64,000 bases of DNA from Prochlorococcus sp. RS04. GTDB lineage: Bacteria > Cyanobacteriota > Cyanobacteriia > PCC-6307 > Cyanobiaceae. The position numbers and the translations under genes were made by a program. Positions 21,612 to 51,824 of this stretch are shown one piece after another (position 1 is the stretch's first letter; each line of letters opens with the position of its first letter). The notes below the pieces were generated by a model. That model worked only from the letters and a program-made list of their open reading frames with translations, searched no databases and was not told where the DNA came from. The stretch covers positions 1,488,001-1,552,000 of the forward strand of contig NZ_CP018346.1 of NCBI RefSeq assembly GCF_001989455.1. Direction: 5' to 3'.

Positions 21612-21695
21612 TTCATCTAGAGCAAAATCATAAAACCTTAGTTAATTAAGTATTAAATTGAAAAAATTTCTAATTAAGAGTTATTATGAAATGAT

Positions 21696-21752
21696 GGGGG
21701 AAACCCCATACTCCTCACACACTAAATCGCCCGATTAATCGGGCTTTTTTTT
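21696..21752 (+). ncRNA. yfr1: Yfr1 small RNA
   Basis: A compact RNA with three parts: a 5' hairpin GGGG-AAA-CCCC (21697-21707), an unpaired stretch holding the ultra-conserved motif ACTCCTCACAC (21710-21720), and a terminator hairpin GCCCGATTAATCGGGC (21729-21744) followed by eight T. This matches Yfr1, an abundant cyanobacterial antisense regulator that represses outer-membrane porin mRNAs through the motif. Position just before trxA is also the known one. The exact 5' end may differ by a base or two. Confidence 0.96.
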
Positions 21753-47386: not shown

Positions 47387-47821
47387 TTAATTCTGAGCTT
47401 GATAACAGTTTTGGCAAAGCCCGAAATACTCCAGGGTATGAAACAACAATTGGAATTTCTTTGGATTTGTTTTGGGTGTATGAATATCTTTTACCGGGCA
47501 TCCTTCCATTTTTGATGTCTCACCACATTGAACACAGGTCAAATGATGAATATCTCTATCTACGGGAGTGTAAAGAACCTCTCCAGTTGGGAGATGTCTA
47601 GAACGTATTAAGCCATGCTTTATCAGAACTTGAAGATTCCTGTAAACAGTCGTCAGTCCCATAGCCTTTCCGCTTTCTATCAATTGTCTATGCAACTCTT
47701 GACCAGTCAATTCATCCTCGCATTTATTAAGTTCTTCAAGAAGTTGTTCTTGTCTTTTGGTAATGTCAGACTTAGTTACCATTGTTTCCGAAATCTTTTT
47801 TTGTCCCGTATTTTTGATCAT
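47387..47821 (-). CDS. zur: Fur-family regulator, probably Zur
   Basis: A 144-residue Fur-family repressor. It has the winged helix GLTTVYRNLQVLIKHGLI, the metal-binding HHLTCVQCGETSKME and a C-terminal CQNC; the two CxxC pairs form the structural zinc site. Context (znuABC and a Zur box) indicates zinc-responsive control. It occupies the gap between znuC and znuB on the opposite strand. An ATG at 47782 is an alternative start that would leave more room for its promoter before znuB. Confidence 0.9.
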   Translation of the reverse strand: MIKNTGQKKISETMVTKSDITKRQEQLLEELNKCEDELTGQELHRQLIESGKAMGLTTVYRNLQVLIKHGLIRSRHLPTGEVLYTPVDRDIHHLTCVQCGETSKMEGCPVKDIHTPKTNPKKFQLLFHTLEYFGLCQNCYQAQN

Positions 47822-47838
47822 ACCGAATCATTCGAATA

Positions 47839-48624
47839 ATGTCTTTTATTAATAACAACTGGTGGCTGGTTCCATTAATAATAACTATATTCTCTGGGAT
47901 TTTATGCCCAGCTATGGGAACTGTATTAATCACGCATAAGAGATTATTACAAGTTAATTTAATCTCTCATTGTGTGTTGCCTGGACTTGCTCTCGCATTA
48001 GCGCTTGGAATTCACCCCTCAATTGGTGGTGTTATAAGTGGTCTTCTGGGCTCAGTAATTGCGGAAAGTTTAACTAATAGAAAAAGTGAAAATTATGAAG
48101 CAGTTATGAATACTATTCTCGCTGGAATGCTTGGATTTGGGGTCCTTATAATCCCTTTACTCGGAATAAGGATTGATTTGGAGGCAGTATTATTTGGCGA
48201 TTTATTGACAGCAAATTTTGGAGATTTACTGAGAACAATTATTGCTTTTTTAGTATTTATACTTTTAATGACTTTTGGATATGAAAAAGTTGTTTATGTG
48301 GGATTGGATCCAGAAGGTGCATCCGCGAGCGGTATAAACGTTTCTTTATTGAATCTTGCTTTGAGTTTAACAACGGCATTAGTAATTGTAAGTTCAATGT
48401 CAGCAGTGGGAGTAATTCTCGTTATTGCTCTTCTTTCTACCCCAACACTGTTAGGGCTTAATAAGGCTCATAGTTTAAGAATTGCAATGATGAGGTCTTC
48501 ATTTTTTGGATTATGTATCTCACTTTTGGGCTTTATTCTCTCTATAGTCTTTAATTTGTCGCCTGGACCTGCAATTAGTGTTATTTGTGTCGCATCTCTT
48601 TTGATTCCTAAACTTCGTAAATAA
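47839..48624 (+). CDS. znuB: zinc ABC transporter permease
   Basis: A 261-residue membrane permease of the ABC-3 (metal) family with about eight helices. It contains GTVLITHKRLLQVNLISHCVLPGLALALALG and LGSVIAE, typical of this class. A short palindrome CGAATCATTCG (47824-47834) stands just before its ATG; its role is unclear. znuC is separated from it by zur on the other strand, and an independent promoter is probable. Confidence 0.93.
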   Translation: MSFINNNWWLVPLIITIFSGILCPAMGTVLITHKRLLQVNLISHCVLPGLALALALGIHPSIGGVISGLLGSVIAESLTNRKSENYEAVMNTILAGMLGFGVLIIPLLGIRIDLEAVLFGDLLTANFGDLLRTIIAFLVFILLMTFGYEKVVYVGLDPEGASASGINVSLLNLALSLTTALVIVSSMSAVGVILVIALLSTPTLLGLNKAHSLRIAMMRSSFFGLCISLLGFILSIVFNLSPGPAISVICVASLLIPKLRK

Positions 48625-48771
48625 TTAAATCTTAAATGTCCAATCAGAGTTCAATGCTTGAGCTTCTGGATTGTTTTTTAAAGCTAATTCCATAGCCTCT
48701 TTTTTATTATTAGCTATAACAACTTCATCAAATTCCTTTCCATTTTTTTTGAGACTTACTTTGAAACGCAT
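48625..48771 (-). CDS. 48-residue conserved small protein
   Basis: Encodes a 48-residue protein beginning MRFKVSLKKNGKEFDEVVIA and containing NNKKEAMELALKNNPEA. The alternating strand then amphipathic helix suggests a compact beta-alpha fold. Coding is supported by clean composition and by its stop abutting the znuB stop tail to tail. Function is unknown. Confidence 0.7.
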   Translation of the reverse strand: MRFKVSLKKNGKEFDEVVIANNKKEAMELALKNNPEAQALNSDWTFKI

Positions 48772-48854
48772 AAAAATTTTTTAATTAATCAAAAGTTAAC
48801 CACTAAGCAAATAGATTTAAATACTTTTAAAAGTTAATTGATGAAATAGAAACT

Positions 48855-49103
48855 TTAGTTATTTTGAAGTTTTTCTACTACAGATTCTTTCTCAATTTTA
48901 GCTACATCTTGTAATCCATTAGCATCAAACCAAGGAGCGTTTTCCCAATTAAATCCTTCACCAAACGTATTATCGGGAGCAGCTACGTACCAGTGACATG
49001 AAGAATCGGGAACATCTACAGCACATTTTGACCAGTCAGCTTCCCACTGTGGAACTTGTACCCACATCACAGATGCTAATAAAAAAGAAAAAATAAAATT
49101 CAT
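48855..49103 (-). CDS. secreted Trp-rich small protein
   Basis: An 82-residue protein with a short signal-like N-terminus (residues 1-14) and a mature part rich in Trp (WEADWSKCAV, CHWYVAAPDN, NWENAPWFDANG). Two Cys could form a disulfide in an exported compartment. Function is unknown. Confidence 0.72.
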   Translation of the reverse strand: MNFIFSFLLASVMWVQVPQWEADWSKCAVDVPDSSCHWYVAAPDNTFGEGFNWENAPWFDANGLQDVAKIEKESVVEKLQNN

Positions 49104-49112
49104 AATTATCGG

Positions 49113-49256
49113 TTAGCAAAATTTTGAAAGATTTTTTTCACATTCTTTCTTTCTTTTCTTCCAGTAATTCTCAAGTATTTGATATTTATGCTTATTTTTG
49201 AATTGACTTAAATGAATATTATTCTGATTAAGAACTGAAGTATTTTTGATTTTCAT
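49113..49256 (-). CDS. possible 47-residue basic protein
   Basis: An open frame from ATG with a highly basic C-terminal half (YWKKRKKECEKNLSKFC). It ends nine bases before the start of the secreted Trp-rich gene, so the two could be one transcript. No family is recognised; its small size makes it uncertain. Confidence 0.4.
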   Translation of the reverse strand: MKIKNTSVLNQNNIHLSQFKNKHKYQILENYWKKRKKECEKNLSKFC

Positions 49257-49332
49257 GACTCAAGCTGTCTACGTAGAACATATTTAAGACACTTTATAGA
49301 TTTTTTGAAGTGAATTTATACTTAATTTTGTC

Positions 49333-49467
49333 TTACTTTTGTGTAGGTAAGTATTTTTCGGGATTATTTTCAATATAAGTAAGCGAATATTTGACAATAC
49401 CTACTATTACTGAAAAAAGAGCAATTGCCGAAATAAGAAAAATGATTTTTTTGTAAATGCTTTTCAT
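49333..49467 (-). CDS. possible 44-residue single-span protein
   Basis: Encodes KSIYKKIIFLISAIALF then a short polar tail, i.e. one transmembrane helix with a basic N-terminal side. The frame stays open upstream to a TTG at 49509 that would add 14 residues. Single-span proteins of this size are abundant in this region; function unknown. Confidence 0.5.
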   Translation of the reverse strand: MKSIYKKIIFLISAIALFSVIVGIVKYSLTYIENNPEKYLPTQK

Positions 49468-49551
49468 TAATTTTTTATGTTTTTGATTATTTTTTTCATC
49501 AACGCCCAATTTTTCTGAAAGATTTAAATAATTAGTAATTTATACTGTAGC

Positions 49552-49662
49552 CTTTTAAATTACCTACGGAGTAAATTAAATACATCAGAAACTCCTCACA
49601 CACTTTTTTCTGATAACTTTAAAAGTACTCAACTGCAATGTTTGAGTACTTTTTGTATTTTT
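49552..49662 (+). ncRNA. candidate small RNA carrying the Yfr1 core motif
   Basis: A TATACT -10 box at 49541-49546 is followed by about 110 bases without a credible reading frame. A hairpin (stem ATCAGAA 49584-49590 with TTCTGAT 49608-49614) shows ACTCCTCACAC in its 17-base loop (49591-49601), identical to the Yfr1 motif. A 12-pair terminator hairpin (49621-49653) then runs into a T-rich tract. A GGAGT at 49568-49572 could instead pair with ACTCC of the motif, giving an alternative fold. Confidence 0.6.
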
Positions 49663-49736
49663 TTGCGATGTGACAGTTAAGATAGAGGTCTATTAGGCAT
49701 TACATATTTTGAAATTAAGTGTGATATTAAGTTTGT

Positions 49737-49830
49737 GTGTAGGAGGAATTGATTCATTTCAGTGGAAACAAGGAAACACTTGATTTAAATCAATTTTAAA
49801 AAGATCTCTCTCTGAGGGGTCTTTTTTTTT
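49737..49830 (+). ncRNA. candidate Yfr2-family small RNA
   Basis: A TATTAA box at 49725-49730 precedes a stem AATTGATT/AATCAATT (49747-49754 with 49788-49795). An inner stem AGTG/CACT encloses the loop GAAACAAGGAAA (49765-49776), and a terminator hairpin with T-run follows (49798-49830). The length of about 94 bases and the repeated GGAAAC in the loop match my recollection of the Yfr2-Yfr5 family of Prochlorococcus. No reading frame is apparent. The 129 bases between this RNA and the DUF1499 gene contain nothing else I can identify. Confidence 0.65.
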
Positions 49831-49959
49831 GGGTTATTAGAAATAAATATTAAATTCTGAATATAAAAACATATATGCTTTCTTCCAAAATAATTAGATA
49901 CGTCATTACAAATTAGTAATTTAATTCGTTAGATTATGCTTCGTTAAATATTTCTGTTA

Positions 49960-50343
49960 ATGAAAATACTTTTTTTAGCAATTTTAATTTGTTCAAGCTT
50001 TTTATTCCCTTCTTCATCATTTGCCTCACATGTAGAACTAAAACCTTGTGTAGAGATCGCTCATTGTGTACGCGAAGAATGGGAGGTTAACAATATTGAG
50101 AAACCTTTTGAAGAGATTAAAACATTTATCGAAAACACTCCAAGAACTGAGATTGTAGAAATAGATGGCGATTATCTTCATGCTGAGGCAACCAGTAAAT
50201 GGATGAAGTATGTAGACGACTTAGAAGTATCCTTTCTACCTGAATCAAACATCTTATCAATAAGATCAGAATCAAGAGTTGGAGAAAGTGATTTGGGAGT
50301 GAATCAAAAAAGAGTTGATTTACTAAAATCAAAAATGTTTTAA
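49960..50343 (+). CDS. DUF1499 family secreted protein
   Basis: A 127-residue protein with a signal peptide (about residues 1-22) and the DUF1499 core, IVEIDGDYLHAEATSKWMKYVDDLEVSFLPE and a C-terminal SRVGESDLGVNQKRVD. The function of this common photosynthetic-organism family is not known; no catalytic motif is apparent. Confidence 0.9.
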   Translation: MKILFLAILICSSFLFPSSSFASHVELKPCVEIAHCVREEWEVNNIEKPFEEIKTFIENTPRTEIVEIDGDYLHAEATSKWMKYVDDLEVSFLPESNILSIRSESRVGESDLGVNQKRVDLLKSKMF

Positions 50344-50483
50344 GATAAAAAAGTTAAAAAAAATTTTATTTTTATTGTTTTTTGTATAACTTTTCCATTT
50401 TTAAAAAAAATTAGCAGATAAAAAAGTGATAATTGTCATCATGCCTTGAATAATGGCAAATTTATTAGATTTTCTCTGAAAAG

Positions 50484-50768
50484 ATGATCATAAATTTTAT
50501 ATATTTATTGTTATCTAGTTTTGTTTTTTTCTGGTTTTATATAAATATTAAAAAAACTGGAGTTAAATGGATAATCAAAGGTCTTTTGCAAATTGGAATA
50601 TTGGTATTATTCATTGGAGGGTTTTTCAAAATATTTTTCACCTTACCCCCTAATTTATTTATAAAAATATTTTTTTTTATTATTTATACATGGTGCACTG
50701 TTGGAATAAATGTAAATTTCATGATCCCTTTGATTAGTTTGATTGACCAAAAAATAGTAAAAAAATAA
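50484..50768 (+). CDS. small membrane protein, three spans
   Basis: A 94-residue, extremely hydrophobic protein with helices at about residues 2-20, 32-52 and 60-85. No family recognised. The 140-base gap before it is AT-rich with no other feature I can support. Confidence 0.6.
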   Translation: MIINFIYLLLSSFVFFWFYINIKKTGVKWIIKGLLQIGILVLFIGGFFKIFFTLPPNLFIKIFFFIIYTWCTVGINVNFMIPLISLIDQKIVKK

Positions 50769-50827
50769 AACTAAAATATGCCTTAATTCTCAGTACAAAA
50801 ATAAATCTATTTCTTTAATCTGCAATA

Positions 50828-50953
50828 TTAAAATTTATAGGATTTATTTTTTCCTTTTGAAAGTCTTTTTCTTGTATACCTAGTCTTTAATGCCAAGTCT
50901 GTCATTATATATATTCCAAATAAAAGAAGGATTATTCCAATAAAGTATTTCAT
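50828..50953 (-). CDS. 41-residue single-span membrane protein
   Basis: Encodes a 41-residue protein with one helix (FIGIILLLFGIYIMTDLAL) and a strongly basic C-terminal tail rich in Lys and Arg. Positioned 17 bases downstream of the OsmC gene on the same strand, so probably on its transcript. Function unknown. Confidence 0.6.
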   Translation of the reverse strand: MKYFIGIILLLFGIYIMTDLALKTRYTRKRLSKGKNKSYKF

Positions 50954-50970
50954 TATTTTTTATGTAATTA

Positions 50971-51390
50971 CTATGTTTGAGATTTATAATTATGCCAACT
51001 AATTTTAATATCTATTTCTTGAGATAAATTTCTTGTGACTGGACATTCTTTGGAAGCTTTTTTCAAAAAATCAATAGTTTCATTAGAAGTGTTCTTTGGT
51101 ATAAAAATATCTATTATTAGTTCTTTTATCTTCCTCTCGCTATTTTGTGTCATTACTTTTTCAATATTTAAATATATACCTTTCAAATCAAATCCTTTCA
51201 ATTTAGCTTTGATGGCCATAATGGTTAGCAGGCAAGTACCTAGAGATGTTGCTAATAAATCAGTTGGAGAAAAACTTTCACCTTTACCGCAGTGATCTAA
51301 AGGTGCATCAGTTCTAATAAGACTTCCAGATTGTAGATGAATAGCCTCACAGTTTAAATTTCCTAAATAAGAACATTTAACTTTAGTCAT
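50971..51390 (-). CDS. OsmC/Ohr-family peroxidase-like protein
   Basis: A 139-residue OsmC-fold protein with two conserved redox cysteines, one in LGTCLLTIMAIKAK and the other in KECPVTRNL, plus the preceding FSPTDLLATS. Family members reduce organic or inorganic peroxides. It may protect against photo-oxidative stress. A small membrane protein gene follows closely on the same strand. Confidence 0.92.
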   Translation of the reverse strand: MTKVKCSYLGNLNCEAIHLQSGSLIRTDAPLDHCGKGESFSPTDLLATSLGTCLLTIMAIKAKLKGFDLKGIYLNIEKVMTQNSERKIKELIIDIFIPKNTSNETIDFLKKASKECPVTRNLSQEIDIKISWHNYKSQT

Positions 51391-51517
51391 TTTAAAAAAT
51401 TAAATTAGGAAAATATTATTAGTAAAAAATTATGGAACATAACAAGATTATTGATGAGAAATTTTTTATTTGCATATTAGTGGAGTATTAAGGAAATTCA
51501 TCATTCAAGTTTTGAAA

Positions 51518-51760
51518 TCAGTTTTTATATCCATATTCCTCTAAGCAATACTCAATTAATTCAATTGATTTATTAAGAGTTCTTTTATTTTTATTTTCTA
51601 GATCGAAACATTCATTTAAAACACGTATAGATTCATTTAAGAATGATTCTTCTTTATTTTTTATATCTTTAACTTGATTTATATAAATTAATTTTTTAAT
51701 CCCAATTAGGGAAAATATGATTATTGATATTGTAAAAATTGCTATTTTGAATTTATTCAT
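51518..51760 (-). CDS. small anchored protein with Cys
   Basis: An 80-residue protein from the ATG at 51760 (a TTG at 51778 is possible but less likely). It has an N-terminal hydrophobic helix (about residues 3-22) and a charged coiled-coil-like remainder with ECFDLENKN and a C-terminal ECLEEYGYKN-type ending with Cys. Function unknown. Confidence 0.65.
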   Translation of the reverse strand: MNKFKIAIFTISIIIFSLIGIKKLIYINQVKDIKNKEESFLNESIRVLNECFDLENKNKRTLNKSIELIEYCLEEYGYKN

Positions 51761-51824
51761 ACAATTAGTTATTACCAATATTTTAATTTACTTAATATCT
51801 GAAAACTTTACATAGCTTATAGAA

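Follow-up and report, generated by a model that had tools for sequence, protein, structure and literature searches.

The 11-base motif ACTCCTCACAC of the small RNA Yfr1 occurs exactly twice in the window (the whole 64-kb stretch of DNA analyzed in the present study), at 21710-21720 and 49591-49601, both on the forward strand, and no further exact match exists elsewhere in the 1.66 Mb genome. The question raised by the second copy is whether a further RNA carries the Yfr1 seed, as a first-pass annotation of this DNA had claimed, and which RNA this might be. The recurrence of the motif, on which that claim was built, was confirmed: none of 100 dinucleotide-preserving shuffles of the window contained it, and the zero-order expectation in 64 kb is 0.009. 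The remainder of the second RNA had been described as unrelated to Yfr1, in agreement with an Rfam search of the window, in which RF01116 exceeded its cut-off at 21694-21747 only and not at 49591. The 11-nt seed is identical in the two RNAs, whereas the loci are different and the seed of Yfr1 is located between two hairpins rather than in a hairpin loop. The features concerned are the following.

21694-21747, forward strand: Yfr1, the other carrier of ACTCCTCACAC, from Rfam RF01116
49584-49659, forward strand: Yfr18 small RNA (Rfam Yfr10, RF02362), about 76 nt, from Rfam, the Northern length in MED4 and equivalence with the Yfr10 5' end
49591-49601, forward strand: seed ACUCCUCACAC in a 17-nt loop (49591-49607) closed by the stem 49584-49590/49608-49614, from sequence and fold
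49621-49653, forward strand: terminator hairpin with arms 49621-49632 and 49642-49653, from sequence and fold

In the cmscan search with Rfam thresholds, positions 49584-49665 were matched over the full length (1-78) of Yfr10 (RF02362) with 60.6 bits against a cut-off of 43, and positions 49733-49800 were matched above the cut-off by Cyano-1/Yfr2 (RF01701) with 75.5 bits. The latter match starts 68 nt past the end of the former, which is the layout published for the Yfr10 family in high-light strains. Using genome G033 as the reference for synteny and sequence comparison, which is taken as MED4 because it has Yfr10 and Yfr1 at the coordinates published for that strain, all 11 of the window ORFs tested (47387-51778) were found in the same order and on the same strand at approximately 972 kb in MED4, and the distance from Yfr1 to the Yfr18 locus is 27.9 kb here and 28.5 kb in MED4. 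Because the window from 46 to 53 kb is collinear with the yfr18-yfr5 region of MED4, the feature at 49584 is, by synteny, the Yfr10-family member orthologous to MED4 Yfr18, and the RNA beside it is Yfr5. Two short reverse-strand ORFs upstream of Yfr18, 49113-49256 (47 aa) and 49333-49509 (58 aa), have matches in MED4 with 64% and 55% identity, respectively, and are therefore probably genuine small genes.

The element is consequently real, as claimed, and is an RNA already described in 2008. Steglich et al. (PMC2518516) reported the motif three times in MED4, in Yfr1, Yfr10 and Yfr18, and Yfr18 was found to be expressed, with bands of 29 and 76 nt on Northern blots and 5'RACE. In the same report, Yfr10, Yfr12 and Yfr18 directly adjoin Yfr2, Yfr4 and Yfr5, the motif was proposed to pair with GUGUGUAGGAG of Yfr2-5, and five further strains with Yfr18 and two with Yfr10 are given in Table 1. 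The RNA at 49584 resembles MED4 Yfr18 (PMC2518516) in its seed, hairpin, terminator, Yfr5 neighbor, gene order and distance to Yfr1, and the 76-nt length fits; it differs in the terminator loop, in the upstream block and in an upstream GGAGT that MED4 Yfr18 does not carry. The likeness to Yfr10 (RF02362; PMC2518516, PMC6778093) extends to the Rfam family, the seed in a hairpin loop, the position 5' of a Yfr2-family gene and similar upstream elements, but Yfr10 has another locus, another terminator and a spacing to the Yfr2-family gene of 81-91 nt instead of 62-70 nt.

The structure of the RNA was accurately described in the first-pass annotation. The motif lies in a 17-base hairpin loop on a 7-bp stem, AUCAGAA/UUCUGAU, as read from the sequence, and the 12-pair terminator is present in both sequence and fold. 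The two hairpins were recovered by RNAfold for 49584-49659 (-18.5 kcal/mol) and in a consensus fold of 23 hand-picked orthologs. In the RNAfold prediction, the first A of the motif is drawn into an eighth stem pair (unpaired probability 0.25), and motif positions 2-11 are unpaired with a probability of at least 0.99. The order of the Yfr10 family, a 5' hairpin that has ACUCCUCACAC in its loop and then a terminator, is thus observed, with the first A partly paired. A terminator scan allowing loops of at most 8 returned the terminator of the next gene only and not 49621-49653, and covariation in the seed stem was weak, amounting to 3 cells with both sides changed, a level reached by 88 of 500 shuffles. 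By eye, an upstream CUUUUAAA could pair with UUUAAAAG beside the terminator; this pairing is unused in the minimum-energy fold of 49552-49662 and, by eye, absent from MED4.

Directly downstream lies an RNA of complementary sequence, Yfr5, which the first-pass annotation had missed, as it had the identity of the known small RNA itself. The features of this part of the locus are given below.

49670-49686, forward strand: TGTGACAGTTAAGATAG upstream of Yfr5, perhaps a GntR (CGRE1) site in the yfr5 promoter, from conservation
49735-49826, forward strand: Yfr5 (Yfr2 family, Cyano-1), from Rfam, fold and terminator scan
49735-49745, forward strand: 5' end of Yfr5, GUGUGUAGGAG, complementary to the seed, from sequence
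49798-49826, forward strand: terminator of Yfr5, from terminator scan

The conserved TGTGACAGTTAAGATAG, which we presume may be a GntR (CGRE1) site, shows a mean pairwise difference of 0.065, compared with 0.260-0.317 in the flanking spacers. At the other Yfr2-family copies L358 and L360-L362, TGTGACAGTTAAGATAG lies within a longer dyad, TGTCACATGTGACA. The promoters of Yfr2-family genes can carry CGRE1 (PMC6778093). The relation of Yfr18 to Yfr2-5 (Cyano-1, RF01701) is that of an adjoining gene to an antagonist with a complementary motif, but the Yfr2-family RNA is an RNA in its own right, with a terminator of its own and, from published work (PMC1242208), its own 5' end. The Yfr18 loop is predicted to pair with the 5' end of Yfr5 over 11 bp, interrupted by one bulge (-16.9 kcal/mol), and the gain from cofolding with this 5' end was 10.7 kcal/mol for Yfr18 and 16.1 kcal/mol for Yfr1, values reached by 3 of 300 shuffles of the Yfr5 5' end in each case. 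The duplex of the Yfr18 loop with the other Yfr2-family copy has the same predicted energy (-16.9 kcal/mol), and the changed loop at the Yfr10 locus of this genome gives -14.3 and -14.5 kcal/mol with the two copies. These nearly equal energies led us to reject cis-specific pairing, in which each RNA would prefer its own neighbor; thus, nothing in the seed favors the cis partner.

The start of the Yfr18 transcript bears on several of the readings discussed below, and three elements upstream of the hairpin are relevant.

49532-49550, forward strand: distal conserved block TTAGTAATTTATACTGTAG with TATACT (49541-49546), a second promoter or a regulator site, from conservation
49568-49572, forward strand: GGAGT, proposed earlier as an anti-motif and here read as promoter DNA outside the 76-nt RNA, from conservation and fold
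49572-49577, forward strand: proximal -10-like hexamer TAAATT (TARATT), at -12 to -7 from A49584, from conservation

At -12 to -7, TAGATT or TAAATT was present in 105 of 114 Yfr18-class sequences (T-12 0.98, A-11 0.99, T-7 0.99), a set restricted to exact seeds that includes loci fetched with a seed-containing pattern, among the matches listed, and one mis-sorted Yfr10-locus copy (L010); of the 57 other family members, 23 had one of the two hexamers (T-12 0.88, A-11 0.88, T-7 0.86). The published 5' end of MED4 Yfr10 (346661) falls on the first hairpin base, equivalent to A49584 here, and a 76-nt RNA starting from this position would end at 49659, in the T-rich stretch past the terminator stem. 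The likely main 5' end is therefore A49584, presumably served by the TARATT element. The -10 box indicated by the first-pass annotation, TATACT, does exist within the distal block, but TAAATT has the more favorable position for the main RNA, and neither hexamer was backed by a sigma-70 consensus scan of 49400-49900, in which the sole site was on the other strand (49888-49860). The distal block (measured over 49532-49551) showed a mean pairwise difference of 0.059 per column, compared with 0.235 in the upstream DNA, among 36 orthologs with exact seeds, and it may be a second promoter. A degenerate pattern of the block was matched upstream of MED4 Yfr10, and MED4 Yfr18 was not matched within 2 mismatches. 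The block was observed at a nearly fixed distance 5' of the Yfr18 and Yfr10 hairpins and, by eye, is missing at the Yfr12-like loci L042 and L059-L062. With 2 mismatches allowed, the block pattern had 4 matches in the genome and the reversed control also 4, so that no wider regulon of the distal block is claimed.

The published coordinates of these RNAs in MED4 deserve comment. Yfr18 is printed as complement 972284..972388 with a length of 105 (PMC2518516), a span that begins 67 nt 5' of the hairpin and ends at the terminator foot, fitting neither proposed transcript. The hairpin-terminator unit in MED4 was observed at 972321-972246 (in L039, 3247-3389 corresponds to MED4 972246-972388), unlike the printed span. 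The published annotation may need correcting, or it may describe another transcript. For MED4, 346661..346738 is given for Yfr10 and 1000744..1000797 for Yfr1, with PMC1242208 as the source of the coordinates for Yfr1-5, including the Yfr2 end at 346921. In MED4, Yfr10 and Yfr2 are listed with a common precursor of 270 nt, and the 5' end of Yfr12 is called processed (PMC2518516); the distance from 346661 to 346921 is 261 nt, near the size of this precursor. Because such a precursor is listed, the published 5' end of MED4 Yfr10 could be a processed end.

The first-pass annotation had suggested searching for the motif in a hairpin loop elsewhere in Prochlorococcus, and such a search was made here with RF02362. 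Of 266 Prochlorococcus genomes, 219 had an RF02362 match, compared with 0 of 14 genomes from outside the genus; Yfr10-like RNAs are also reported in other cyanobacteria (PMC6778093). For counting, 40 genomes were used, a non-random pick out of the 266, each at least 90% complete, among which 39 have an RF02362 match and all 40 have Yfr1. In these genomes, 55 of 58 RF02362 matches are followed by a Cyano-1 match on the same strand, at a spacing of 62-70 nt (35 matches, Yfr18 type) or 81-91 nt (20 matches, Yfr10 type, a class set by spacing only and taking in MED4 Yfr12, for which a changed seed is already on record in PMC2518516), and 11 of 66 Cyano-1 matches have no Yfr10-family partner. The tandem layout with Yfr2-family genes is already published, including the position of Yfr10 homologs upstream of Yfr2 homologs in high-light strains (PMC6778093); the count of 55 of 58 is added here. 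The seed was exact in all 35 Yfr18-type matches (35 genomes), in 10 of 20 Yfr10-type matches (exact in 8 genomes) and in all 3 family matches without a Yfr2 neighbor; in G060 and G112, two genomes of the 40, no Yfr10-family match with an exact seed was seen. This 40-genome count was taken as the measure of seed conservation, since the sets of 114 and 36 sequences admit exact seeds only. Fisher's test of 35/0 versus 10/10 gave p = 6e-6 with the genomes treated as unrelated, a value that is only suggestive because the genomes are related and the RF02362 model favors intact motifs; as this model rewards an intact seed, lost copies are under-counted. Judged from the contrast between 35 of 35 and 10 of 20, Yfr18 looks like the maintained hairpin copy of the seed.

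In this genome, the Yfr10-type copy (genome 1345300-1345377; L007 1801-1878) has its seed changed to ACTCTTCACAC and retains a Yfr2-family partner downstream. The ACTCTTCACAC change recurs in L046, L064, L069, L229 and L356, and in L001 and L046 a stem pair is changed from C-G to U-A. Among the 9 of 11 partnerless Cyano-1 regions that were displayed, a remnant with ACTCTTCACAC persists in L356, and the best match in each of the other eight has 3 to 6 mismatches; the two regions outside this comparison, L363 and L364, escaped the core pattern. G024 (L073, L233-L236) has five Yfr10-family and five Cyano-1 matches, four of each in tandem, and the partial genomes G051 and G065 have six Yfr10 matches each. 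In viral sequences, a 14-base pattern was found in at least 120 stretches, and 4 of the 120 listed passed a crude stem test, representing one common sequence without any family feature by eye; the 17-base pattern TCAGAAACTCCTCACAC had 0 matches, and two viral stretches with the Yfr2 core pattern gave no Rfam match over the cut-off.

Thus, the RNA is very probably the Yfr18 ortholog, a small RNA that carries the Yfr1 seed and is encoded beside its antagonist Yfr5. The competing idea of a chance 11-mer within non-functional intergenic DNA has the shortness of the motif and nothing else in its favor, and it is reduced to a negligible probability by the absence of the motif from all 100 shuffles, the Rfam family match at the locus, the published transcript of the MED4 ortholog (PMC2518516) and the conservation of both seed and locus among relatives. 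A second alternative, the switch claimed by the first-pass annotation, supposes a longer transcript from TATACT, starting at about 49553, in which GGAGU (49568-49572) would pair with ACUCC and hide the seed. TATACT does sit within the strongly conserved block, GGAGT occurs in 86 of the 114 Yfr18-class sequences within the 28 nt that precede the hairpin, and the sum of 29 and 76 is 105, the printed length of MED4 Yfr18, as a cut-off leader would give. However, even in the longer transcript, the pair probability of GGAGU:ACUCC is 0.0007, and the forced fold lies 4.2 kcal/mol above the minimum (-17.9 versus -22.1). Moreover, GGAGT is absent from MED4 Yfr18, occurs in 1 of the 57 other family members, varies to GAAGT, AGAGT, GTAGT and GGGGT, and overlaps the TARATT element, and the published MED4 Yfr10 RNA starts at the hairpin (PMC2518516). 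Since 49568-49572 is located upstream of the likely 5' end, GGAGT is read as promoter DNA; neither the fold nor the 114 and 57 family sequences revealed any conserved alternative fold of the transcript in which the seed would be hidden. The switch is therefore highly unlikely, and it is to be dropped unless long transcripts are found.

The alternative that deserves more weight is that Yfr18 is mainly a partner or sponge of Yfr5 and the other Yfr2 copies and has little direct effect on mRNAs. The tandem layout of 55 of 58 matches would suit this role, as would the findings that Yfr2 binds Yfr1 and Yfr10 more tightly than ppa mRNA does and that Yfr10 protects Yfr2 from RNase E cleavage in vitro (PMC6778093). 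Against it, Yfr10 has mRNA targets of its own in pull-down experiments and binds ppa in footprinting (PMC6778093), and the three family members with an exact seed but no adjoining Yfr2-family match (in G024, G026 and G104) have no such partner beside them. We consider this reading possible, with perhaps a minor share of the probability.

Herein, we favor Yfr18 as one half of a seed and anti-seed pair. An RNA of about 76 nt, from 49584 to about 49659, would present ACUCCUCACAC in a hairpin loop, and this loop might pair with mRNAs in the manner of Yfr1 and Yfr10. The same loop could also pair with the GUGUGUAGGAG 5' end of Yfr5 and of other Yfr2 copies, which would outcompete the mRNAs, so that the ratio of Yfr18 to Yfr5 might set the amount of free Yfr1-type seed. 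For Yfr18, the evidence obtained here consists of sequence, family, synteny, conservation, predicted structure and predicted pairing; from MED4, it is joined by the Yfr18 transcript (PMC2518516) and by the seed-dependent mRNA binding of Yfr10 and the Yfr2 sequestration (PMC6778093). The functional work reported in PMC6778093 concerns Yfr10 rather than Yfr18, and nothing on Yfr18 was found in passages of PMC7368042. In PMC6778093, Lambrecht et al. (2019) found that Yfr10 targets are partly common with Yfr1 and partly private, that Yfr10 binding of ppa mRNA is seed-dependent, that Yfr2 inhibits Yfr10 and that Yfr10 levels are higher in the dark; the porin mRNAs PMM1119 and PMM1121 are shown targets of Yfr1 (PMC6778093). 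By analogy with Yfr10, we infer a similar mode of action for Yfr18, including in the present strain. The suggestion of the first-pass annotation that the RNA could act on the porin mRNAs of Yfr1 at other times is probably right as regards overlapping mRNAs and different timing, both of which are shown for the paralog Yfr10 in MED4. Taken as a whole, that annotation held in its description of a real element, and its switch is not supported.

The published network is one in which a single seed is carried by several RNAs and opposed by RNAs of complementary sequence. The present study adds Yfr18 as the seed-keeping paralog, the tandem layout counted in 40 genomes and the advice against the switch. 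With about even chances of being correct, we propose that, in the strains around this genome, Yfr18 rather than Yfr10 is the maintained seed hairpin, while the Yfr10 locus is losing its seed or drifting to the recurrent ACUCUUCACAC with its Yfr2-family neighbor kept; this seed loss at the Yfr10 locus against retention in Yfr18 was not found in the literature searched on Yfr10 and Yfr18. If this is true, studies of MED4 Yfr10 would deal with a gene that has not been retained by many relatives, and it is the Yfr18-Yfr5 pair that would act as the functional unit in the ocean.
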